This document shows positions 1-9,785 of a stretch of DNA of 64,000 bases, in pieces. The notes beneath the pieces are model-generated. The model worked only from the letters and a program-made list of their open reading frames with translations. It did no database searches and was not told the origin of the DNA. The stretch is from the NCBI RefSeq assembly GCF_000196115.1, contig NC_005027.1, forward strand, positions 2,108,001-2,172,000. Reading direction: 5' to 3'. The position numbers were made by a program, and so were the translations under genes. Origin of the DNA: Rhodopirellula baltica SH 1. GTDB taxonomy: Bacteria > Planctomycetota > Planctomycetia > Pirellulales > Pirellulaceae. Positions within the stretch are counted from its first letter, which is position 1; every line of letters begins with the position of its first letter.

Positions 1-38
1 CCAGCATCCCACACGAACTCTTAAGGTGACGGGCCCAA

Positions 39-365
39 ATGGCGATTCAGATAGTCTATCCGGAGTTGGCAGGTCATCGCGTTCTCGCCATTCAACGGAA
101 TGCCAAGGCGAAAGATGTGGTCGCACAGTATTGGGTTGCCAGCGGAGCACGCAATCTAAATTGGGGCATCATTTTGGATATCTTGATGCATCCCCTGCCT
201 CAAGCGGATGAACAGGAATTCTCGCTAAAACTACAGGGCAGGCTTGCCAGTCGACATTTCCAAACCGTACGGTATATCAGCGATACGACTGAAAGACTTG
301 GCATCAAATCCGAGGATTTCGAATCGAATTTGCCTTGTAACGAAGGGCGATATTGTGAAGGGTGA
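39..365 (+). CDS. Small adaptor-like protein, first gene of TIR unit
   Basis: A 108-residue protein with no signal peptide or membrane segment. The ATG at 39 follows a good ribosome site (AAGGTGA, 24-30). Its stop overlaps the start of the TIR gene by 11 bases, so the two are probably translated together. The fold cannot be named with certainty. Its size, helix-forming composition and position directly ahead of a TIR effector match effector-associated domains (small adaptor modules found beside bacterial TIR, trypsin and caspase-like effectors), and this is inference from context. The last 30 residues (from about position 80) may be poorly conserved because they share bases with the next gene's leader. 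Alternatively the two frames were once one gene now split by a frameshift, since the downstream frame is open back to 244. Confidence 0.6.
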   Translation: MAIQIVYPELAGHRVLAIQRNAKAKDVVAQYWVASGARNLNWGIILDILMHPLPQADEQEFSLKLQGRLASRHFQTVRYISDTTERLGIKSEDFESNLPCNEGRYCEG

Positions 366-2445
366 GTTTGACGTTTTCCTGTGCCACAACAGTGCAGATA
401 AGCAAGAGGTGCGGAAAGTCGCCACAGAACTTGCCGCAAATGGCCTGACATATTGGCTCGATGAAGAGCAACTTCGTCCAGGGCTACCATGGCAACGCAC
501 ACTCGAGCGTGCAATCGTAGACATTCGAGCGGCCGCAGTTTTCATTGGTGGATCAGGTCTTGGACCCTGGCAAGAAATGGAGCAGGAGGCGCTTCTACGT
601 CGTTTGGTTAAAGACGATTGCCCAGTCATTCCGGTGATTCTGCCGTCGTGCCAATCAACGCCGGATCTTCCCGTGTTTCTGGAAGGTATGAACTGGGTTG
701 ATTTTCGTTCTACTACGGCTGATCCGTTGCGACGATTAATCTGGGGAATTACTGGACGCGCACCAGGTGAAACGCACTCGGATTTCCCCACTGGACCTCG
801 AATTAAAGAACTACGACTGCGAGAAAAACTTACACAGGCGCAGCTTGCTGACCTTATAGCAGTTTCTCCTGCAACTGTAAGCAAATGGGAGACTGGTAAA
901 CAGATTGCTCCACAGTCTCAAGCAAGAAAAATTTGCGCTGTGCTTGAGAAAGAACAGGTACAAGAAACAGTCTGTGATGTCGTGGTCTTGTTGCATGGCA
1001 TACGCGATCGTGGCGAATGGCAACAAATGATGCGACGGATTCTTGAAGAAAACACTGTGAATCTGAAGGTCTTCGGATGTAAGTATGGTTACTTTGATGT
1101 CTTTCGATTTCTCGCACCTTGGGATTGGGGGAAACGACCAAGGGAGCGTGCTGAAAGGCAGCTTAGACTCGTAAAGAAAGCGTTTCCAAATGCCAGAACC
1201 ACGGTGATAGCTCATAGCTATGGAACATACCTTCTTACTCGAATCTTAACGGACAAGTCTGATATCGAGCTTTGGCGTGTAATTTTATGTGGTTCTGTAG
1301 TGGACGAGAATTTTCAGTGGGACAAAGTTAGTCATCTTGTCGGTGACAGGAATGATCCCGAAAAACGCAAATACATCATCAATGACTGTGGCAGTCGTGA
1401 TATTTGGCCTGTCTTAGGGAAGTCGGCTGGATGGGGCTATGGCGCGGCTGGTGTCGACGGATTCGGCCAGATTTGTGTTCAAGACAGATTCCACCTGGGC
1501 GGACACTCTTTATTTTTTGATGAAGAATTTGTTTCGACCTGGTGGAAACCACTCGTTGAGGGTCGTTTACTTGCCAATCCTGACGGAAATACAAGCCAGC
1601 GAAAGGACATGCCAACGTGGCTTACATTCTTTGATTTTGTCCCTCTTCGCTGGCTGATTGTTCTTCTTGTTGTCTTCGCCTGCGTGGCTCTTGCATCCAT
1701 TTGCTACAGGCTCATGCCAAACAGCTCGAGGCGATCGAATGTAGTTGGGTCTGCGTCTCTCGACGTTTCCGACCGTATGTTTACTGTCGTTGATGTCTTA
1801 ACGGATGAAATCGTTGCACGCAAAGCGGTGTTGACCTACACATCGGACGAGATGCCTCTGAGCAACACCTCGATATCAGGACAGTTGGGGCAGATTAAAG
1901 ACCCCGGTGACATCGGGAATATTGAGTCAGTGGAAATCAGCGGATTCAGGTATCGTGCAAGAACCCGTATGAAACTGATGGTGGAGAGAATCAATCCACT
2001 CTACGAGCAATCCATACGTCCCCTGGACGAGTACGACTTACCATCGCACGAAATTTATGATCTGGCCAAACAGACTGGGAGACCGGATGAATTTGCATTA
2101 ACCGTCTACAATGAAACGAATTCTCACGTCGATCTTTTGTTTTTGCATTATGCACCAGTCAAATTCCAATCTCCCTTTGGAGATGCCTGGGAGTTGGTGA
2201 TCCCTCCAATAGCGCCAGGGCCCAAAGGTATACGAACACTTAATGAATTCAACAAAGAAGTGGGCTTGTTTCTCGTGTTTGCATCTATGAACGGGATGCG
2301 TTCCGAGCATGTACTCACTCAGGATTTCTACTTACACGAAGCTCCGCTTCTTATTATTAAATTTGGCAGAAACGGTCTGTCGTCAGAGCTTCTATGGGGT
2401 GAAGATTCTAGGGCCTTCTTAGAGAAAAGGACACGAGATGAATAG
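355..2445 (+). CDS. TIR - XRE HTH - alpha/beta hydrolase - membrane protein
   Basis: A multidomain protein of 696 residues if it starts at GTG 355, which has AAGGG (343-347) in front and overlaps the upstream stop; an ATG at 244 in the same frame would add 37 residues that look non-domain. Residues about 5-120 are a TIR domain (FDVFLCHNSADK at its start, WQEMEQEAL carrying the likely catalytic Glu). Residues about 148-200 are an XRE-type helix-turn-helix (LTQAQLADLIAVSPATVSKW). Residues about 207-400 are an alpha/beta hydrolase with the oxyanion turn VLLHGIRDRG and nucleophile elbow AHSYG (Ser about 288). One membrane segment lies near 433-451, followed by a C-terminal domain of about 240 residues that I do not recognise. 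TIR domains of this class often cleave NAD+; that activity here is inferred. The stop overlaps the next gene by 8 bases. Confidence 0.85.
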   Translation: MKGEFDVFLCHNSADKQEVRKVATELAANGLTYWLDEEQLRPGLPWQRTLERAIVDIRAAAVFIGGSGLGPWQEMEQEALLRRLVKDDCPVIPVILPSCQSTPDLPVFLEGMNWVDFRSTTADPLRRLIWGITGRAPGETHSDFPTGPRIKELRLREKLTQAQLADLIAVSPATVSKWETGKQIAPQSQARKICAVLEKEQVQETVCDVVVLLHGIRDRGEWQQMMRRILEENTVNLKVFGCKYGYFDVFRFLAPWDWGKRPRERAERQLRLVKKAFPNARTTVIAHSYGTYLLTRILTDKSDIELWRVILCGSVVDENFQWDKVSHLVGDRNDPEKRKYIINDCGSRDIWPVLGKSAGWGYGAAGVDGFGQICVQDRFHLGGHSLFFDEEFVSTWWKPLVEGRLLANPDGNTSQRKDMPTWLTFFDFVPLRWLIVLLVVFACVALASICYRLMPNSSRRSNVVGSASLDVSDRMFTVVDVLTDEIVARKAVLTYTSDEMPLSNTSISGQLGQIKDPGDIGNIESVEISGFRYRARTRMKLMVERINPLYEQSIRPLDEYDLPSHEIYDLAKQTGRPDEFALTVYNETNSHVDLLFLHYAPVKFQSPFGDAWELVIPPIAPGPKGIRTLNEFNKEVGLFLVFASMNGMRSEHVLTQDFYLHEAPLLIIKFGRNGLSSELLWGEDSRAFLEKRTRDE

Positions 2446-3625
2446 AGTTATTTTGCAATCTTTCGGGCTCGCCATCGCCGCCATAATGTCGGGCATGTTC
2501 TCATGTCCTTGCAACGCCCAGAACCAGTTAAAAGTCGAAGGCAAGACATCCTACATTATCAGGCTAAGGCCAAGCACCAATAGACTTAGTGGCTGGCTCT
2601 CAAAAGCTATAAAAGGTGGTGAACCACCAGTCAACCTTGAACTGAAGCATTCAGGACCATATGACATGCACTTGCTATTCTTAAATGAGGACGGCGAGAC
2701 AGTGAGCTCCTGGTCATCCAACGGCCCCGTTGACTTTGCGAATATTGATCTCAGTAAGAGCTTCGACCTTTCTATGCTGCAGATGATGTTTATGGTTACT
2801 GGATCATCAGGTCAGCCGGAACCATTCGCTGTGTCAGCATGGCATATGCGTAATGGAAATGTCCTGTTTCATTCACCGATTGGCTTGCTCATAAGAACTG
2901 GATTGGCATTTGAATTCGACAAAGAAGATCTTGACACCCACATTACAGTTAAGGGCGAAAACGACGCGATTGACCTGCACTTTTCAGGAACTCTGGATGC
3001 TCTGGAGATAAGCGTTAACGGTGCGCAGATGAAGGTTGACAATCTGTGGCTTGCGCATGACGACATCAGGAAGAATGACCTAGTGTGCTCTGGCACGTAT
3101 CAGTTCAAAAACGAGTCTGGCGAGTTCCTGATTCACAGAAAGATCGGCTTTCCTGGCTGCAAGTTTTTTGTCAACTTCAAGGCGAAGAATGCTGAGTGGA
3201 CATCACTTGTGTATTCGGCAAACTATGTTGCATCGGCGCCTGATACCAGCTTTGTGGCTGAGGAGCTTAGAGCAGCGGTTCAACGCTTGGAAACACTAAT
3301 TGGTGTCGAGCAAAAAAGATTGGCGAAGCAATCAGACCTTATTGAATCGCAGGTTAAGCAACTCGGTTTTGCGCAATCAAGGATGGCCGACACGACTGAT
3401 GAGCTATGGCTGAAGCTCAATAATCCAGAGGTGCATAGCGTGCTCACCAAGTGCATGAAATGCCATAGGGAAGGAAAACACGGGCCATCTTTTGCTGGTC
3501 ATGAGGCATGGTTGCCAGCTATGGCTGAACCGACGATGAAAGAGATGTCCAACCTTGCAAAACTGACTGAGGAGCAAAGAGCCGCACTTGATCGTTTCAT
3601 TCGCAACGTTGCAGCAGCTGAGTGA
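2438..3625 (+). CDS. Exported protein with C-terminal CxxCH haem motif
   Basis: A 395-residue protein starting inside the end of the TIR gene (8-base overlap). The N-terminus is a signal peptide (hydrophobic residues 8-19, then cysteines and CNAQ near 25-28). The middle is beta-rich and unrecognised. About residues 270-325 form a likely coiled coil rich in Glu, Gln and Lys. Near the C-terminus, CMKCH at 339-343 is a c-type haem-binding motif with flanking residues like the planctomycete PSCyt1 cytochromes. Haem attachment would place this protein outside the cytoplasmic membrane, while its partner carries TIR and HTH domains inside. The partner's membrane segment makes a trans-membrane signalling pair possible. 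Function unknown. Confidence 0.75.
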   Translation: MNRVILQSFGLAIAAIMSGMFSCPCNAQNQLKVEGKTSYIIRLRPSTNRLSGWLSKAIKGGEPPVNLELKHSGPYDMHLLFLNEDGETVSSWSSNGPVDFANIDLSKSFDLSMLQMMFMVTGSSGQPEPFAVSAWHMRNGNVLFHSPIGLLIRTGLAFEFDKEDLDTHITVKGENDAIDLHFSGTLDALEISVNGAQMKVDNLWLAHDDIRKNDLVCSGTYQFKNESGEFLIHRKIGFPGCKFFVNFKAKNAEWTSLVYSANYVASAPDTSFVAEELRAAVQRLETLIGVEQKRLAKQSDLIESQVKQLGFAQSRMADTTDELWLKLNNPEVHSVLTKCMKCHREGKHGPSFAGHEAWLPAMAEPTMKEMSNLAKLTEEQRAALDRFIRNVAAAE

Positions 3626-4127: not shown

Positions 4128-4170
4128 CCTACGAAACCGAAGGTTACTGGTTCGAATCCAGTGGGGTGTA
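4128..4170 (+). other. tRNA 3' fragment (anticodon loop to acceptor), probable att site
   Basis: The segment has a 5-bp T stem ACTGG/CCAGT around loop TTCGAAT, a 5-base variable region, an imperfect anticodon stem and the loop CTACGAA (anticodon ACG, arginine), ending GGGGTGTA. No D arm or matching 5' acceptor strand lies upstream, so it is not a working tRNA. Fragments that run from the anticodon loop to the 3' end are what tyrosine integrases leave when they insert into a tRNA gene. A truncated integrase lies just downstream, and the same fragment shape marks the end of the tRNA-His island at 55047-55091. Confidence 0.7.
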
Positions 4171-4175
4171 CTACG

Positions 4176-4560
4176 CTAAATGCTGTTTAACAAACGTTTT
4201 AGCTTCGATAACTCCGCTGCTGATAGCTGCGGAGTTTTTTCGTGTCCCCCCATTATCGCATCCGTAGTTGCAGGTGTGGCGAGTTTCTGACGTACTTCGC
4301 TTGCGGCGGCCTGAGCTGATCGCGTTGCGCCGTAGTGCTTTTCTGTCGTCGCGAAATCAGCGTGACGCATGACGACCTTGAGCGTCTCCGCAGAGACGCC
4401 GGCATTGATAAGGCGTTGCGCACAGCCGCGCCTGATATCATGAACACTCGCAAACTTGGTTCTGGTGCCAGTTCGCTCATCCTCGTTCCGAACAACGATT
4501 CCGGCTTTTTTGCCAATCAATCCAATGATGCGGCCGACACGTTCTTTGGTTAAACGCTCC
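4176..4560 (-). pseudogene. Tyrosine integrase, C-terminal remnant
   Basis: The reverse strand encodes the catalytic C-terminal part of a tyrosine recombinase. SVHDIRRGCAQRL holds the H-x-x-R pair, MRHADFATTEKHYG holds the second histidine and the nucleophilic tyrosine, and the tail is AAASEVRQKLATP. Similarity seems to begin near LTKERVGRIIG and to stop about where the radC gene starts on the other strand. The open frame extends to 4712 but that part does not look like integrase. The N-terminal and core-binding domains are missing. The stop codon sits 6 bases from the tRNA fragment, the usual place for an integrase gene beside its attachment site. Confidence 0.75.
4210..4240 (+). terminator. 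Rho-independent terminator after tRNA fragment
   Basis: AACTCCGC (4210-4217) pairs with GCGGAGTT (4229-4236) around an 11-base loop, followed by T residues to 4240. The position, 40 bases past the tRNA 3' end, suggests that it was the terminator of the original tRNA gene. It overlaps the end of the integrase remnant on the other strand. Confidence 0.7.
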
Positions 4561-4564
4561 GAAC

Positions 4565-5191
4565 GTGCCGAAGGCAAAGCCCACGTACGTCGGCAAGCTC
4601 GTGTCACCACGTGTGAAGGAGAAAAGTGACAAGGAACTGCTGGCTCTTGTGCTGCGATCGCAATTCGAGCGTGTCGCCAACAGGAAGGTCCGTGAGATTG
4701 CCCAGGCGTCAAAGGCGGAACTGGGTTTGACTGACATTGCCTATGAACGATTGATGGCTGGGATTGAGCTGGGAAAGCGTGTGGGCGAAGCGAAGACCAA
4801 CTTCAACGAACGGCTGACCTCCACCCACAAAGCGGTCGCGTTCTGCAGGTCGCACTTCTCGCGACTAATCGCAGAGGGGCTTCAGGAAGAATTTCATATC
4901 GTGACGCTCGACACCAAGCACAGGATGATTGATTCACACAGAATCACCGTGGGAACACTCGATGCATCTCTGGTCCATCCTCGCGAAGTTTTCCGGCCAG
5001 CCATTAGGGACGCTTGCAGTTGCGTTCTGTTGGCCCACAACCATCCGTCTGGAGACCCGACTCCCAGCCGTGAAGATTTCAAAGTAACTCAGCAATTGAC
5101 TGAGGTGGGCAAAGTCATTGGCATCACCGCGCTGGACCACATCGTTCTCGCAAGAGAAAACTGCTTGAGCTTGCGTGAACAGGAACCGTAG
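4565..5191 (+). CDS. radC: RadC/JAB-family metalloprotein
   Basis: A 208-residue RadC-family protein. Residues about 95-208 are the JAB/MPN+ domain: the zinc signature AHNHPSGDPTPSREDF (H-x-H...D) is intact, and HIVTLDTKHRMIDSHRITVG is typical of the family. A shorter helical region precedes it. It starts at GTG 4565; a proper ribosome site is not obvious. RadC proteins are frequent on mobile elements and next to defence genes, although their biochemical role remains unclear. Here it lies back to back with the truncated integrase and 50 bases from the end of the SEFIR gene, so it is probably cargo of the same accessory region and not the chromosomal radC. Confidence 0.85.
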   Translation: MPKAKPTYVGKLVSPRVKEKSDKELLALVLRSQFERVANRKVREIAQASKAELGLTDIAYERLMAGIELGKRVGEAKTNFNERLTSTHKAVAFCRSHFSRLIAEGLQEEFHIVTLDTKHRMIDSHRITVGTLDASLVHPREVFRPAIRDACSCVLLAHNHPSGDPTPSREDFKVTQQLTEVGKVIGITALDHIVLARENCLSLREQEP

Positions 5192-5241: not shown

Positions 5242-6714
5242 TCACCGGTCGCGTATTCTGGCGATCTCCTCGGCGCTAACGAGATCGCCGTCACCCCAGG
5301 TGCTTCGCCAGTAAGTACTCGAATTGTAGAAGTGTTTCATTTGGTCAGAGAGAACGACTTCGGTGATCTCATCGAACGTTGACAAGCCAAGTATCACGCC
5401 AACTGCACCGGGTTCTGCTGTACGCAACAGCTCGTCGAACAACGGGAGTTGGCGGCTACGTTTCCCATTTATCGATACAGTTGGTCCCCATCGGGCGTGT
5501 TGTTTTACTGCCGCAAGAAGAGCGATTGCATCTGCCTGAACCAGGTCGATGAGTCGAATCGCTGAGTTTGTCGCTCGCTCAGCCATAAGATGTCCGCTGT
5601 ATCGAATCCAACCCGGATTCAACTTCTGATTAGCCATCACTTCTAGCGAGTCTGGAGGGTCGTGGAAAACACCAAAGTTCTCATGCCTTACGTCATCGCC
5701 TCCACGTCTCTCCGACACACTGTACCCGACCGTCAGGAGGTGATTGGCGATTTGGTATCGACGTCTTTTGATTGCGACAGCCAAAACATAGAGAAAGATT
5801 TCAAGAGCGAAAAATCGGTAGTTGTCGGTTGAAATCGGGAATCGCGGACCCTCCGTTTGTTCATCGAGGCGAGTCAGTTCAGCTATCTTTTCCAGGAATT
5901 CCACGAGAGCGCGGCTAAGCCATTCATCCTCGACACCAACAAATGCGCACTCCAGTACCTCGACAACTCTGTCTCGAATTGGCTTCATTTGCTCGATTGC
6001 GAGAAGCACTCTGTCTGGCCACTCTTCTTCGTTTCCTCGTTTGAATTCGAGCTGAAACTCCTCCAAATCTTCCAAGACAGCCTGCTTGAACTGGTCAAAC
6101 GCGAGCGGTGGGTTCCCTTTTCCGGAAGTCAATACTTCACGAAACGTTCTTGCTGATCGCACACATTTCAAGGAAACGACAGTGTCGTCTGTGATGTAGG
6201 CGGGTGGTTTTCCGAGCGGCGGTTTGATTCTCTTTGGTTTGTCAAAAACAACTCTGGTCAATTCTTCAAGACGCGTCGCATAGGCATCAGGATTTGAAAA
6301 GTCGATGTAGATACGCCCACCCAGAAAAACTGGCAAGCAAGCGTTTCCTTGGTCGTCGCGTTCTTTCAGGATTGGAATAAAACGCGTCTCTTCAATATCT
6401 TTGTAGAGCTTCTGCGTGATGATTTGACTTTCTGTGCCGACGCCACCTTTTCGCCCGTCAGCCTTTGCCGCATAGTTCTCATCGCTGACAATCAATACGC
6501 GATCGATTGTCTTATCTGTGACAACTTTCTCCATGAACGTGTTGGCGTCCTGGCCTTCTTTCAGATCGTATTGGTCAACGACAACTTCGATGCCATTCGC
6601 TTGCAGATCCGCAACGAATGCCAGTATCCACTCGATGTGTGGTTCGGACGTGTGTGCGTACGAAACAAAAACTTTCCTTCGCACGCTCTTTGAATCTGAT
6701 GGTGTTTCGCTCAT
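5242..6714 (-). CDS. SEFIR-domain protein
   Basis: A 490-residue soluble protein. Residues about 12-165 form a SEFIR domain, a TIR relative: VFVSYAHTSEPHIEWI at the first strand, GIEVVVDQYDLKEGQD next, then DRVLIVSDENYAAKADGRKG and GVGTESQII. The remaining 320 residues are mostly helical and unrecognised, with no membrane segment. Bacterial SEFIR proteins are found in accessory regions and have been linked to phage defence by abortive infection with NAD+ loss; that role is inferred here. The ATG at 6714 has GGGG about 6 bases upstream. It stands alone, convergent with radC, in the same accessory segment as the TIR unit. Confidence 0.85.
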   Translation of the reverse strand: MSETPSDSKSVRRKVFVSYAHTSEPHIEWILAFVADLQANGIEVVVDQYDLKEGQDANTFMEKVVTDKTIDRVLIVSDENYAAKADGRKGGVGTESQIITQKLYKDIEETRFIPILKERDDQGNACLPVFLGGRIYIDFSNPDAYATRLEELTRVVFDKPKRIKPPLGKPPAYITDDTVVSLKCVRSARTFREVLTSGKGNPPLAFDQFKQAVLEDLEEFQLEFKRGNEEEWPDRVLLAIEQMKPIRDRVVEVLECAFVGVEDEWLSRALVEFLEKIAELTRLDEQTEGPRFPISTDNYRFFALEIFLYVLAVAIKRRRYQIANHLLTVGYSVSERRGGDDVRHENFGVFHDPPDSLEVMANQKLNPGWIRYSGHLMAERATNSAIRLIDLVQADAIALLAAVKQHARWGPTVSINGKRSRQLPLFDELLRTAEPGAVGVILGLSTFDEITEVVLSDQMKHFYNSSTYWRSTWGDGDLVSAEEIARIRDR

Positions 6715-8483: not shown

Positions 8484-9785
8484 CACGGCGATCGCATCAA
8501 AATCATGCTGAGAACATGAGTTTCTCGAGGAAGTCGGTATTCCAGCCCGCTTTTTTTCGCTTCTGCTTGAGACTTCGCTTGGTAGTGTCCTGCTTGAGAA
8601 GCGTCGTCACATAACGACGGATGAACGTGAAATTCGCCGTCGCGTTCTTGGTCCGAATGCGGCTGGCATCGTCGTGGAACACGACATCCAACACCCAGTG
8701 CATGGACTCCACGCTCCAGTGACTCCGGACACTGATTGCGAACTCTCCTACCCGGGCAGGTCGACTGAGCAGGAAATAACGAACCTCGACATGGCACTCT
8801 CCATTTCGCTCCGTTTGCGTGATGGCTTGGCCGATGCTCGTCGCACCTGCCCAGAGATCTGTCATGGCTTTCATCTCAGGTGGTATCGGGCAAACAGCGT
8901 AGAATCGTTCTTCCTGTCGGCCACTCTTTTTTCCCACCGTCTTCTTCGACTTCACTCCATTGGCTTTCAGCCCTTCTTCGTGAACCAACTCGAAGTGTTC
9001 ACGGATGGCATTGGCCAACTTGGGATGGTTGTCTTTGATCGCGAAAATGTAGTCGCCGCCATTACGATGAATCTTCTCAGCAATCGACTTCTGGGCTCCG
9101 ATTGCATCGAGCGTGATAATGGTGCCACGGACATCAATGAAGTCTAAAAGCTCATCAATTGCTGTGATTTCGTTGGTTTTTGAATCCACTTCGGTTTGCC
9201 CAAGAGTGACTCCATGTTTGGAAGCCCAAGCGGATACAAAGTGAATTGCGTTTGATTTCTCAGCGTTGGTGTAAGAGCCGCGTGCGGTCTTGCCGTCAAT
9301 CGCAACATGAATGGGCAGAGACTGCTCTTCATCACGATCAAGCTTGTCTTCGGCGTCGCGATATTGCTGACAAAGTTGTGTGTGCCAGTCTAGCAAAGCT
9401 TGCTGAAACTGCTCTGGCTTGATCAGTGACAGGACTCGACCGATGGTGTCGTGCGAGGGGATGCCGTGAGGGAAATCTGCAAAGCGACTGAGCCAATCGA
9501 GTCGTTCATTTCCAAAACACTCGATCTCTTCGGGACCGTCGGCATCGGCGATCGTCGCAGCAACCACTAGGAACAAAATGGAGTTCAACGGATGCGTGGT
9601 TCGTCCGGGAACGCGAGGGTCTTCGACCTGATCAAAGCAGTCGTGAAACACATCGATTTGCGAAAGCATTGCCGTCTCCATAGCAGGGCATGAATCAAAC
9701 GAGTTCACGCAATCTTTCGCAACAGGTCTTCACCAAGACAACCGGCAATCGAATACTTCTTCCGAAATTTGATGCGATCGCCGTG
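8484..9785 (-). mobile_element. ISAs1-family insertion sequence
   Basis: A complete 1302-bp insertion sequence. Terminal inverted repeats are CACGGCGATCGCATC at 8484-8498 and its inverse at 9771-9785. The direct target duplication AGGTCGAGCG flanks it at 8474-8483 and 9786-9795. The single gene fills nearly the whole element. The empty site can be read in the related repeat at 24421-24450, where AGGTCGAGCG runs straight into ACGCCGTTCAGGCG. Confidence 0.9.
8503..9708 (-). CDS. ISAs1-family transposase
   Basis: A 401-residue DDE transposase that appears full length and active. The N-terminal DDE_Tnp_1-associated region shows DPRVPGRTTHPL and FADFPHGIPSHDTIGRVLS. Catalytic residues are in HVAIDGKTARG (first Asp), IITLDAIGAQ (second Asp) and HWSVESMHWVLDV (Glu). 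Start could be the ATG at 9708 or ATGs at codons 10 and 14; the first leaves 77 bases to the right inverted repeat. The stop is 19 bases inside the left inverted repeat, typical of the compact ISAs1 layout. Confidence 0.93.
   Translation of the reverse strand: MNSFDSCPAMETAMLSQIDVFHDCFDQVEDPRVPGRTTHPLNSILFLVVAATIADADGPEEIECFGNERLDWLSRFADFPHGIPSHDTIGRVLSLIKPEQFQQALLDWHTQLCQQYRDAEDKLDRDEEQSLPIHVAIDGKTARGSYTNAEKSNAIHFVSAWASKHGVTLGQTEVDSKTNEITAIDELLDFIDVRGTIITLDAIGAQKSIAEKIHRNGGDYIFAIKDNHPKLANAIREHFELVHEEGLKANGVKSKKTVGKKSGRQEERFYAVCPIPPEMKAMTDLWAGATSIGQAITQTERNGECHVEVRYFLLSRPARVGEFAISVRSHWSVESMHWVLDVVFHDDASRIRTKNATANFTFIRRYVTTLLKQDTTKRSLKQKRKKAGWNTDFLEKLMFSA

Follow-up and report, generated by a model that had tools for sequence, protein, structure and literature searches.

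Three overlapping genes in Rhodopirellula baltica SH 1 raise the question of whether they form a conserved defence unit or whether only a part of them is conserved. They lie in a stretch of 64,000 nucleotides, called the window here, which spans 2108001-2172000 in a genome consisting of one contig with 7,145,576 bases. The open reading frames (ORFs) 39-365 (gene 1, 108 amino acids, ATG start), 355-2445 (gene 2, 696 amino acids, GTG start at 355) and 2438-3625 (gene 3, 395 amino acids) are all open on the plus strand, and their coordinates confirmed the overlaps of 11 and 8 bases given in a preliminary description of this DNA. Gene 2 encodes a TIR domain, an XRE-type helix-turn-helix (HTH), an alpha/beta hydrolase, one transmembrane (TM) helix and a C-terminal region. 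Its database entry, P0001, has 733 amino acids, as if started at the alternative TTG at 244. As judged from sequence comparison, the conserved element is the hydrolase-TM module of gene 2 and not the operon. Gene 2 may encode a membrane-anchored abortive defence effector in which TIR and lipase act as executioners and the outer half is a possible sensor, a reading which is given a little less than an even chance.

The TIR domain of gene 2 (residues 7-129, 373..741, plus strand) matched TIR_2 with an E value of 1.2e-22. It possesses a WxxxE motif on the same strand, formed by Trp72 (568-570) and Glu76 (580-582); of 116 aligned rows, 115 keep the tryptophan and 114 the glutamate. Both residues align with the W..E of 7uxr, and the glutamate is presumably the catalytic position, as in SARM1-type TIRs. 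The fold, the sequence profile and the WxxxE glutamate of a TIR domain are thus all present, and structure comparison placed the fold close to the SARM1 and SPARTA TIRs. The HTH at about residues 147-200 (793..954, plus strand) matched HTH_3 at 8.8e-11 over residues 150-198. The following hydrolase (residues 203-405, 961..1569, plus strand) has a predicted lipase fold and a complete triad on the plus strand, composed of Ser288 (1216-1218), Asp349 (1399-1401) and His384 (1504-1506). Pfam matched it below threshold only (Abhydrolase_1, E=0.14), and no EDS1-type entry was found among the 50 structure matches listed, which does not exclude one. A single hydrophobic segment at about residues 433-451 forms a helix from 431 to 453 in the model (1645..1713, plus strand). 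The C-terminal region of about 240 residues (1714..2442, plus strand) would be periplasmic by the topology of the family, and it is common with the relative P0002, with 27% identity over 223 columns. The TIR domain, the XRE HTH, the complete hydrolase site (AHSYG) and the one membrane helix had all been read from the letters by the preliminary description, and each of them stood. Decay of the TIR or hydrolase sites in relatives, which it had taken as a sign of a chance arrangement, was not found.

The relatives of the hydrolase distinguished what belongs to the module from what is attached to it. The gene 2 product gave 324 matches in a protein search, and most of the 120 listed, from which the relatives over the hydrolase were taken, match roughly one fifth of the query, corresponding to the TIR part. 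P0002 is composed of HTH, hydrolase, TM helix and C-terminal region, and its hydrolase is 64% identical to that of gene 2. P0005 is TIR-hydrolase-TM without HTH, while P0004, P0006, P0007, P0008 and P0010 are hydrolase-TM proteins (helices by eye). As P0002 has no TIR and P0005 no HTH, both domains are separable from the hydrolase-TM module. When genomes were searched with two alignments (A1 and A2), 8 of the 392 from the phylum and 24 of the 397 from the class had a match, both figures including the own genome. Matches were also obtained at 62 loci in species genomes of several phyla (the lower ones distant) and in 14 plasmid records. Altogether 87 hydrolase ORFs were compared. Those with E values up to 1e-50 were taken as the core, which has 42 members including that of the window, in 35 clusters at 85% identity. 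In the core alignment (43 rows), the triad residues Ser288, Asp349 and His384 along with Asn343, Pro352, Gly363 and Arg378 are invariant in 42 of 42 lettered rows, and 41 of the 42 core members have a hydrophobic helix after the hydrolase.

The modules around this core, identified by Pfam scanning of 20 members and by reading of sequences, are diverse. REC precedes the hydrolase in L017 (E=6.9e-5, which misses the cut-off), L086 (by eye) and L122 (PADLOC M60C), and DUF6932 does so in L093, which has no helix. No HTH was matched at E values up to 0.01 in any of the 20 scanned relatives; by eye, L053 and L118 resemble winged-helix proteins. Beyond the helix, GH108 (2.8e-17, L068), HEAT (L058), TPR (L056) and a weak SH3 (0.0057, L054) were found. 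In a 60-row tree, with some long rows of unsure placement, the window protein is the partner of P0002 (100/99). Two changes are required for the two TIR fusions, both forced by well-supported branches, and REC requires three, of which two are forced. The hydrolase-TM family appears as a widespread, little described bacterial family which swaps its sensors. Two acidobacterial proteins of about 1400 amino acids (L087:5443-9582 and L088:760-4998) carry the hydrolase at the C-terminus; a Walker-A-like motif lies near the N-terminus, the large N-terminal parts look NTPase-like by eye, and no helix was found. A planctomycete two-gene version was also observed (L057:7584-8582, L060:7551-8564 and L061:7515-8528), in which a gene of about 335 codons overlaps the hydrolase-TM gene by 8-11 bases. 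This partner had no Pfam match in L057 and L060, the two scanned, and L061 also has a caspase gene upstream (2.7e-13).

Several relatives lie among known defence genes. L122 and L086 show three genes, the last two overlapping, which encode a PDC-M60A-like protein (1137 or 1114 amino acids), a single receiver protein and a REC-hydrolase-TM protein. L122 matched M60A at 2.4e-86 and M60C at 2.5e-19, and L086 matched M60A at 3.8e-20. Operons alike in order and size, with BLAST-related proteins and REC-hydrolase as third gene, were found at L151:1537-6711 and L152:1789-6744 on conjugative plasmids, one of Enterobacter hormaechei (of five Enterobacter records matched) and one of Klebsiella variicola. 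Their genes are annotated as hypothetical except one response regulator, and the Enterobacter copy is an exception, as its best 19-mer mean of 1.14 gives no clear TM helix. At L071, the hydrolase gene is situated 275 bp downstream of a two-gene pair; the first encodes TIR-APAZ (4.6e-136) and the second is presumably the one prokaryotic Argonaute (pAgo) match near the relatives. L080 adjoins GajB/GajA (Gabija), L115 adjoins QatD/QatC and L067 adjoins PDC-M50A. Defence genes are present at at least 7 of 32 loci (L067, L071, L073, L080, L086, L115 and L122); at L073 the match is only a general one, to a type IIG/DrmMI-like methyltransferase. Six proteobacterial loci (L066, L067, L072, L074, L076 and L081) form one clade on the tree and share a three-gene operon of A (about 340 amino acids), B (about 125 amino acids) and hydrolase-TM, for example L074:7454-9708 and L081:7391-9714. 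For A and B of L074, searches of Pfam, PADLOC and PHROGs gave no family within the limits applied. A phage portal gene lies beside the operon in two of the six (L074 and L081), with a terminase gene also in L074; one neighbour each was scanned at the other four, with no portal found. The defence hotspot of phage P2 is placed between gpA and gpQ in the available text of PMC9122126. As phage gpA (PF05840) was found in 0 of 10 genomes, that position is indicated on the portal side only, in the two loci.

The extent of this association was analysed with PADLOC on 119 proteins within 2.5 kb of the hydrolase genes (32 loci), 101 proteins at 4.5-9.5 kb (29 of these 32 loci) and, as a third set, 119 proteins taken at 20 arbitrary positions across five planctomycete genomes. 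At 1e-10, 130, 153 and 114 families were matched, respectively, and these counts were rejected as an enrichment test because the number does not discriminate. Among the 25 families listed for each set, the near set has M60, Gabija, pAgo, TIR-APAZ, Qat, type IV restriction endonuclease, DrmMI, ThsB, M50 and the general SspA/DndA, and the far set has DpdE, PtuA, PDC-M01A, type I specificity, DrmA/D, BrxH and others. For the arbitrary positions, the models PD-T4-6, mad6, C3a189, MkoA and PglW are listed with two members each, which we take to be of kinase type. This set is an unmatched control, as many of the 32 loci are proteobacterial. Since far proteins match as well and the control is unmatched, the claim is limited to the presence of hydrolase relatives in defence islands, as their neighbours indicate, and neither a closer association nor an enrichment is claimed.

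Topology was addressed by counting lysine and arginine within 15 residues of the helix in the 34 cluster representatives which have one. The sum is 69 before the helix and 33 after it; 21 representatives have their excess before it, 4 have it after, and 9 are tied. For the 25 representatives with at least 15 residues past the helix the sum is 52 against 29, with more before in 15 and more after in 4. REC and HTH, and TIR too, precede the helix while GH108, SH3 and CxxCH follow it in relatives. Together with the charge bias, this is consistent with a family topology in which the hydrolase is inside and the C-terminus outside, less surely so for the window protein. A caspase in L055 would therefore lie outside the cytoplasm, which is odd.

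Genes 1 and 3 showed a different picture. Gene 1 (39..365, plus strand) has a codon score of 0.041, which exceeds those of its other five frames (at most -0.073) and is near the 5th percentile of coding chunks (0.009). As this score also falls within the wrong-frame range, between its 75th and 95th percentiles (-0.042 and 0.080), gene 1 is plausible as a real gene and not more than that. The preliminary description had called it a small adaptor, and nothing beyond its size speaks for one. A likeness to the N-termini of relatives as an effector-associated domain was judged chance (best z against shuffles 4.24 over 22 amino acids for L102, 1.65 for L115). Gene 3 (2438..3625, plus strand) has a signal-peptide-like N-terminus by eye (residues 1-27, 2438..2518, plus strand) and CMKCH at residues 339-343 (3452..3466, plus strand). 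CxxCH on an exported chain, as expected of a c-type cytochrome, is thus present, and both features had been pointed out before. The name haem protein, given along with them, was not sustained by any family passing the cut-off (Cytochrome_CBB3 E=0.011, 16.5 bits against 27), so that it rests on CxxCH and export. No cytochrome was found among the PDB matches of gene 3 up to E=1, and its structure model (predicted local distance difference test, pLDDT, 41) was too poor for structure search. Shine-Dalgarno-like stretches are seen by eye at the three starts, AAGGTGA (23..29, plus strand) for gene 1, GAAGGG for gene 2 and AAAAGGA for gene 3.

The protein search, which needs shared 5-residue words and similar length and scored 7999 candidates for gene 3, returned only genes 1 and 3 themselves. 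Among 149 genomes of the family, five congeners included, only the own genome was matched, and among the ORFs of the compared loci only the two genes themselves. Because relatives of genes 1 and 3 were not found, the conserved co-occurrence proposed in the preliminary description did not hold, and a conserved three-gene unit is rejected as far as searched. The most probable of the alternatives, in our estimate still an unlikely one, is that gene 2 works alone, genes 1 and 3 being passengers without relation to it or quickly decaying remnants which overlap it by chance on acquired DNA. No neighbour like gene 1 or gene 3 recurs in the relatives. The three-gene DNA does look acquired, which fits its codon scores (0.041, -0.025 and 0.000, compared with a median of 0.175 and a 5th percentile of 0.009 for window genes elsewhere) and GC contents of 0.491, 0.480 and 0.477. 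However, genes 1 and 3 overlap gene 2, their frames are open, their codon scores and GC are like those of gene 2, and gene 3 retains CxxCH and a signal-like N-terminus. One relative, L055:8932-10827 of Aliiroseovarius, bears a CxxCH past the helix on the same chain, in the order hydrolase, TM helix, caspase C14 (9.4e-29) and CxxCH at residue 542. In 14 of 2000 shuffles of the 34 tails the same was reached, which makes chance unlikely, and this is the only related hint for gene 3. The L055 motif fits no cytochrome family well: PSCyt1 was not found in the genome of L055, and CBB3 gave only E=0.70 at its tail.

Under the reading of gene 2 as a defence effector, the TIR, XRE and lipase-like hydrolase would lie in the cytoplasm, one helix would anchor them and about 240 residues would project into the periplasm. 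The resting protein would be inactive; its XRE domain might in addition bind DNA or act as a repressor of the operon. Infection might be perceived as nucleic acid at the membrane, or as envelope damage via the C-terminal domain together with the exported CMKCH protein, and would cause clustering. The clustered TIR would cleave NAD+ and the hydrolase would attack membrane lipid or another ester, by which the infected cell would be stopped. The strongest support is the intact, conserved active sites and the same module being the effector gene in M60-type operons. As the sites are intact and hydrolase relatives lie among defence genes, the envelope-linked abortive system guessed in the preliminary description remains reasonable, without the conserved operon attached to it.

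Several observations weigh against this reading. No three-gene operon like that of the window was found among the relatives, so its defence role stands by family association only, and no recurring CxxCH gene was found next to the hydrolase in relatives. The closest relative among the matches listed, P0002, has no TIR. A helix after the hydrolase was found in only 17 of 45 distant members, 28 showing none. The window protein is one of the four opposed in charge (1 lysine or arginine before the helix, 3 after). The structure prediction which had been proposed for its C-terminal region was run and gave no confident fold, most of it being modelled below pLDDT 50. Proteins 4.5-9.5 kb away from the hydrolase genes also match defence models strongly.

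The TIR and the hydrolase may also act in series, a nucleotide signal or filament of the TIR activating the attached lipase in cis so that only the hydrolase executes, with a logic like that of the plant pathway from TIR to the lipase-like EDS1. TIR is joined to this hydrolase at two separate places of the tree and resembles the SARM1 and SPARTA folds, but the lack of TIR in the nearest relative argues against such a relay, which is regarded as improbable. Least of all, and very improbable, is a membrane-bound transcription regulator with enzymatic modules, in which a periplasmic haem state would pass through the helix to the XRE domain by ToxR/CadC-like logic: an XRE domain on a TM protein, an exported CxxCH partner and the HTH-hydrolase-TM order retained in P0002 would suit it, but XRE sits between two enzyme domains and no HTH was matched at E values up to 0.01 in the 20 scanned relatives.

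Among known systems, the closest likeness is to Detocs/PDC-M60, taken here as three genes for a kinase-like A, a receiver B and a receiver-effector C. Gene roles of Detocs are described in the available part of PMC11728103. In that of PMC11811056, PDC-M60 appears as an unpublished candidate named differently by another tool, and we infer that it equals Detocs. In L122, L086 and the similar plasmid operons, the effector part of gene C is a relative of the window hydrolase-TM, whereas kinase and receiver genes are absent from the window operon and its N-terminal module is TIR-XRE. The three window genes matched neither the M60 models nor a receiver domain, while L122 and L086 did. Unlike single-protein TIR effectors and SPARTA (TIR-APAZ with short pAgo), gene 2 has XRE, a lipase-like hydrolase and a TM helix, and its chain gave no STAND or APAZ match over the hydrolase half. 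Alpha/beta hydrolases and TIR are effectors of the EAD (effector-associated domain)/VMAP conflict systems, in which a hydrolase-caspase pairing also occurs, according to the accessible portions of PMC7159879 and PMC8195603. The hydrolase-TM family, the TIR-hydrolase fusion and the CxxCH partner are not described in those portions. L055, which fuses the family hydrolase to a caspase, and L061, with its caspase gene nearby, resemble these systems, whereas MoxR and vWA domains are absent from the three window genes. Bacillus subtilis lipase A and other minimal lipases and esterases share about 13-15% identity with the window hydrolase, which differs in being membrane-anchored and fused to signalling modules. 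For Thoeris, the window genes gave only weak ThsB matches (best 2.8e-4). A literature search, with most subscription papers and the papers introducing Detocs and PADLOC candidates outside its scope, gave no description of the family or of the TIR-hydrolase fusion.

The surroundings contain further mobile and TIR genes. Near-identical insertion sequence (IS) copies flank the locus at L006:10161-11462 (plus strand) and window 8484-9785 (minus strand). A composite transposon is rejected; as each copy has its own 10-bp target duplication, CGCCCGCACC and AGGTCGAGCG, they represent two separate insertions. A second TIR/SEFIR-like gene of 490 codons (window 5242-6714, minus strand, PF13676 E=2.6e-15) follows gene 3 at a distance of about 1.6 kb, and the genome holds five TIR_2 matches in total, one interrupted by a stop. 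A C-terminal fragment, presumably of a tyrosine integrase (4176-4712, minus strand), overlaps a gene which we take to be RadC-like (4565-5191, plus strand). The T-arm-like GGTTCGAATCC is found near 4150, where tRNA calling gave none. About 3.7 kb upstream of gene 1, past the IS, a presumed MoxR-like ATPase gene (L006:7158-8297, plus strand) probably belongs to an unrelated chromosomal operon.

In a wider and rather unlikely extension, hydrolase-TM would be a general, largely undescribed executioner, an anchored lipase on many sensors (TIR, XRE, receivers of kinase systems and caspases) with wall or haem domains outside, and in R. baltica there would be a relay from TIR to lipase, with the outer half and the exported cytochrome reading envelope redox or phage entry. 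The topology claim is testable, as signalling modules should lie inside and wall- or haem-binding modules outside, with one helix between. The pairing of TIR with a lipase-like protein is best known from plant TIR-EDS1 signalling. If the proposal is true, the family would give bacterial immunity a new effector class, in which sensors are exchanged on a membrane-anchored lipase, and gene 2 would bring TIR and a lipase-like enzyme together in a single bacterial chain.

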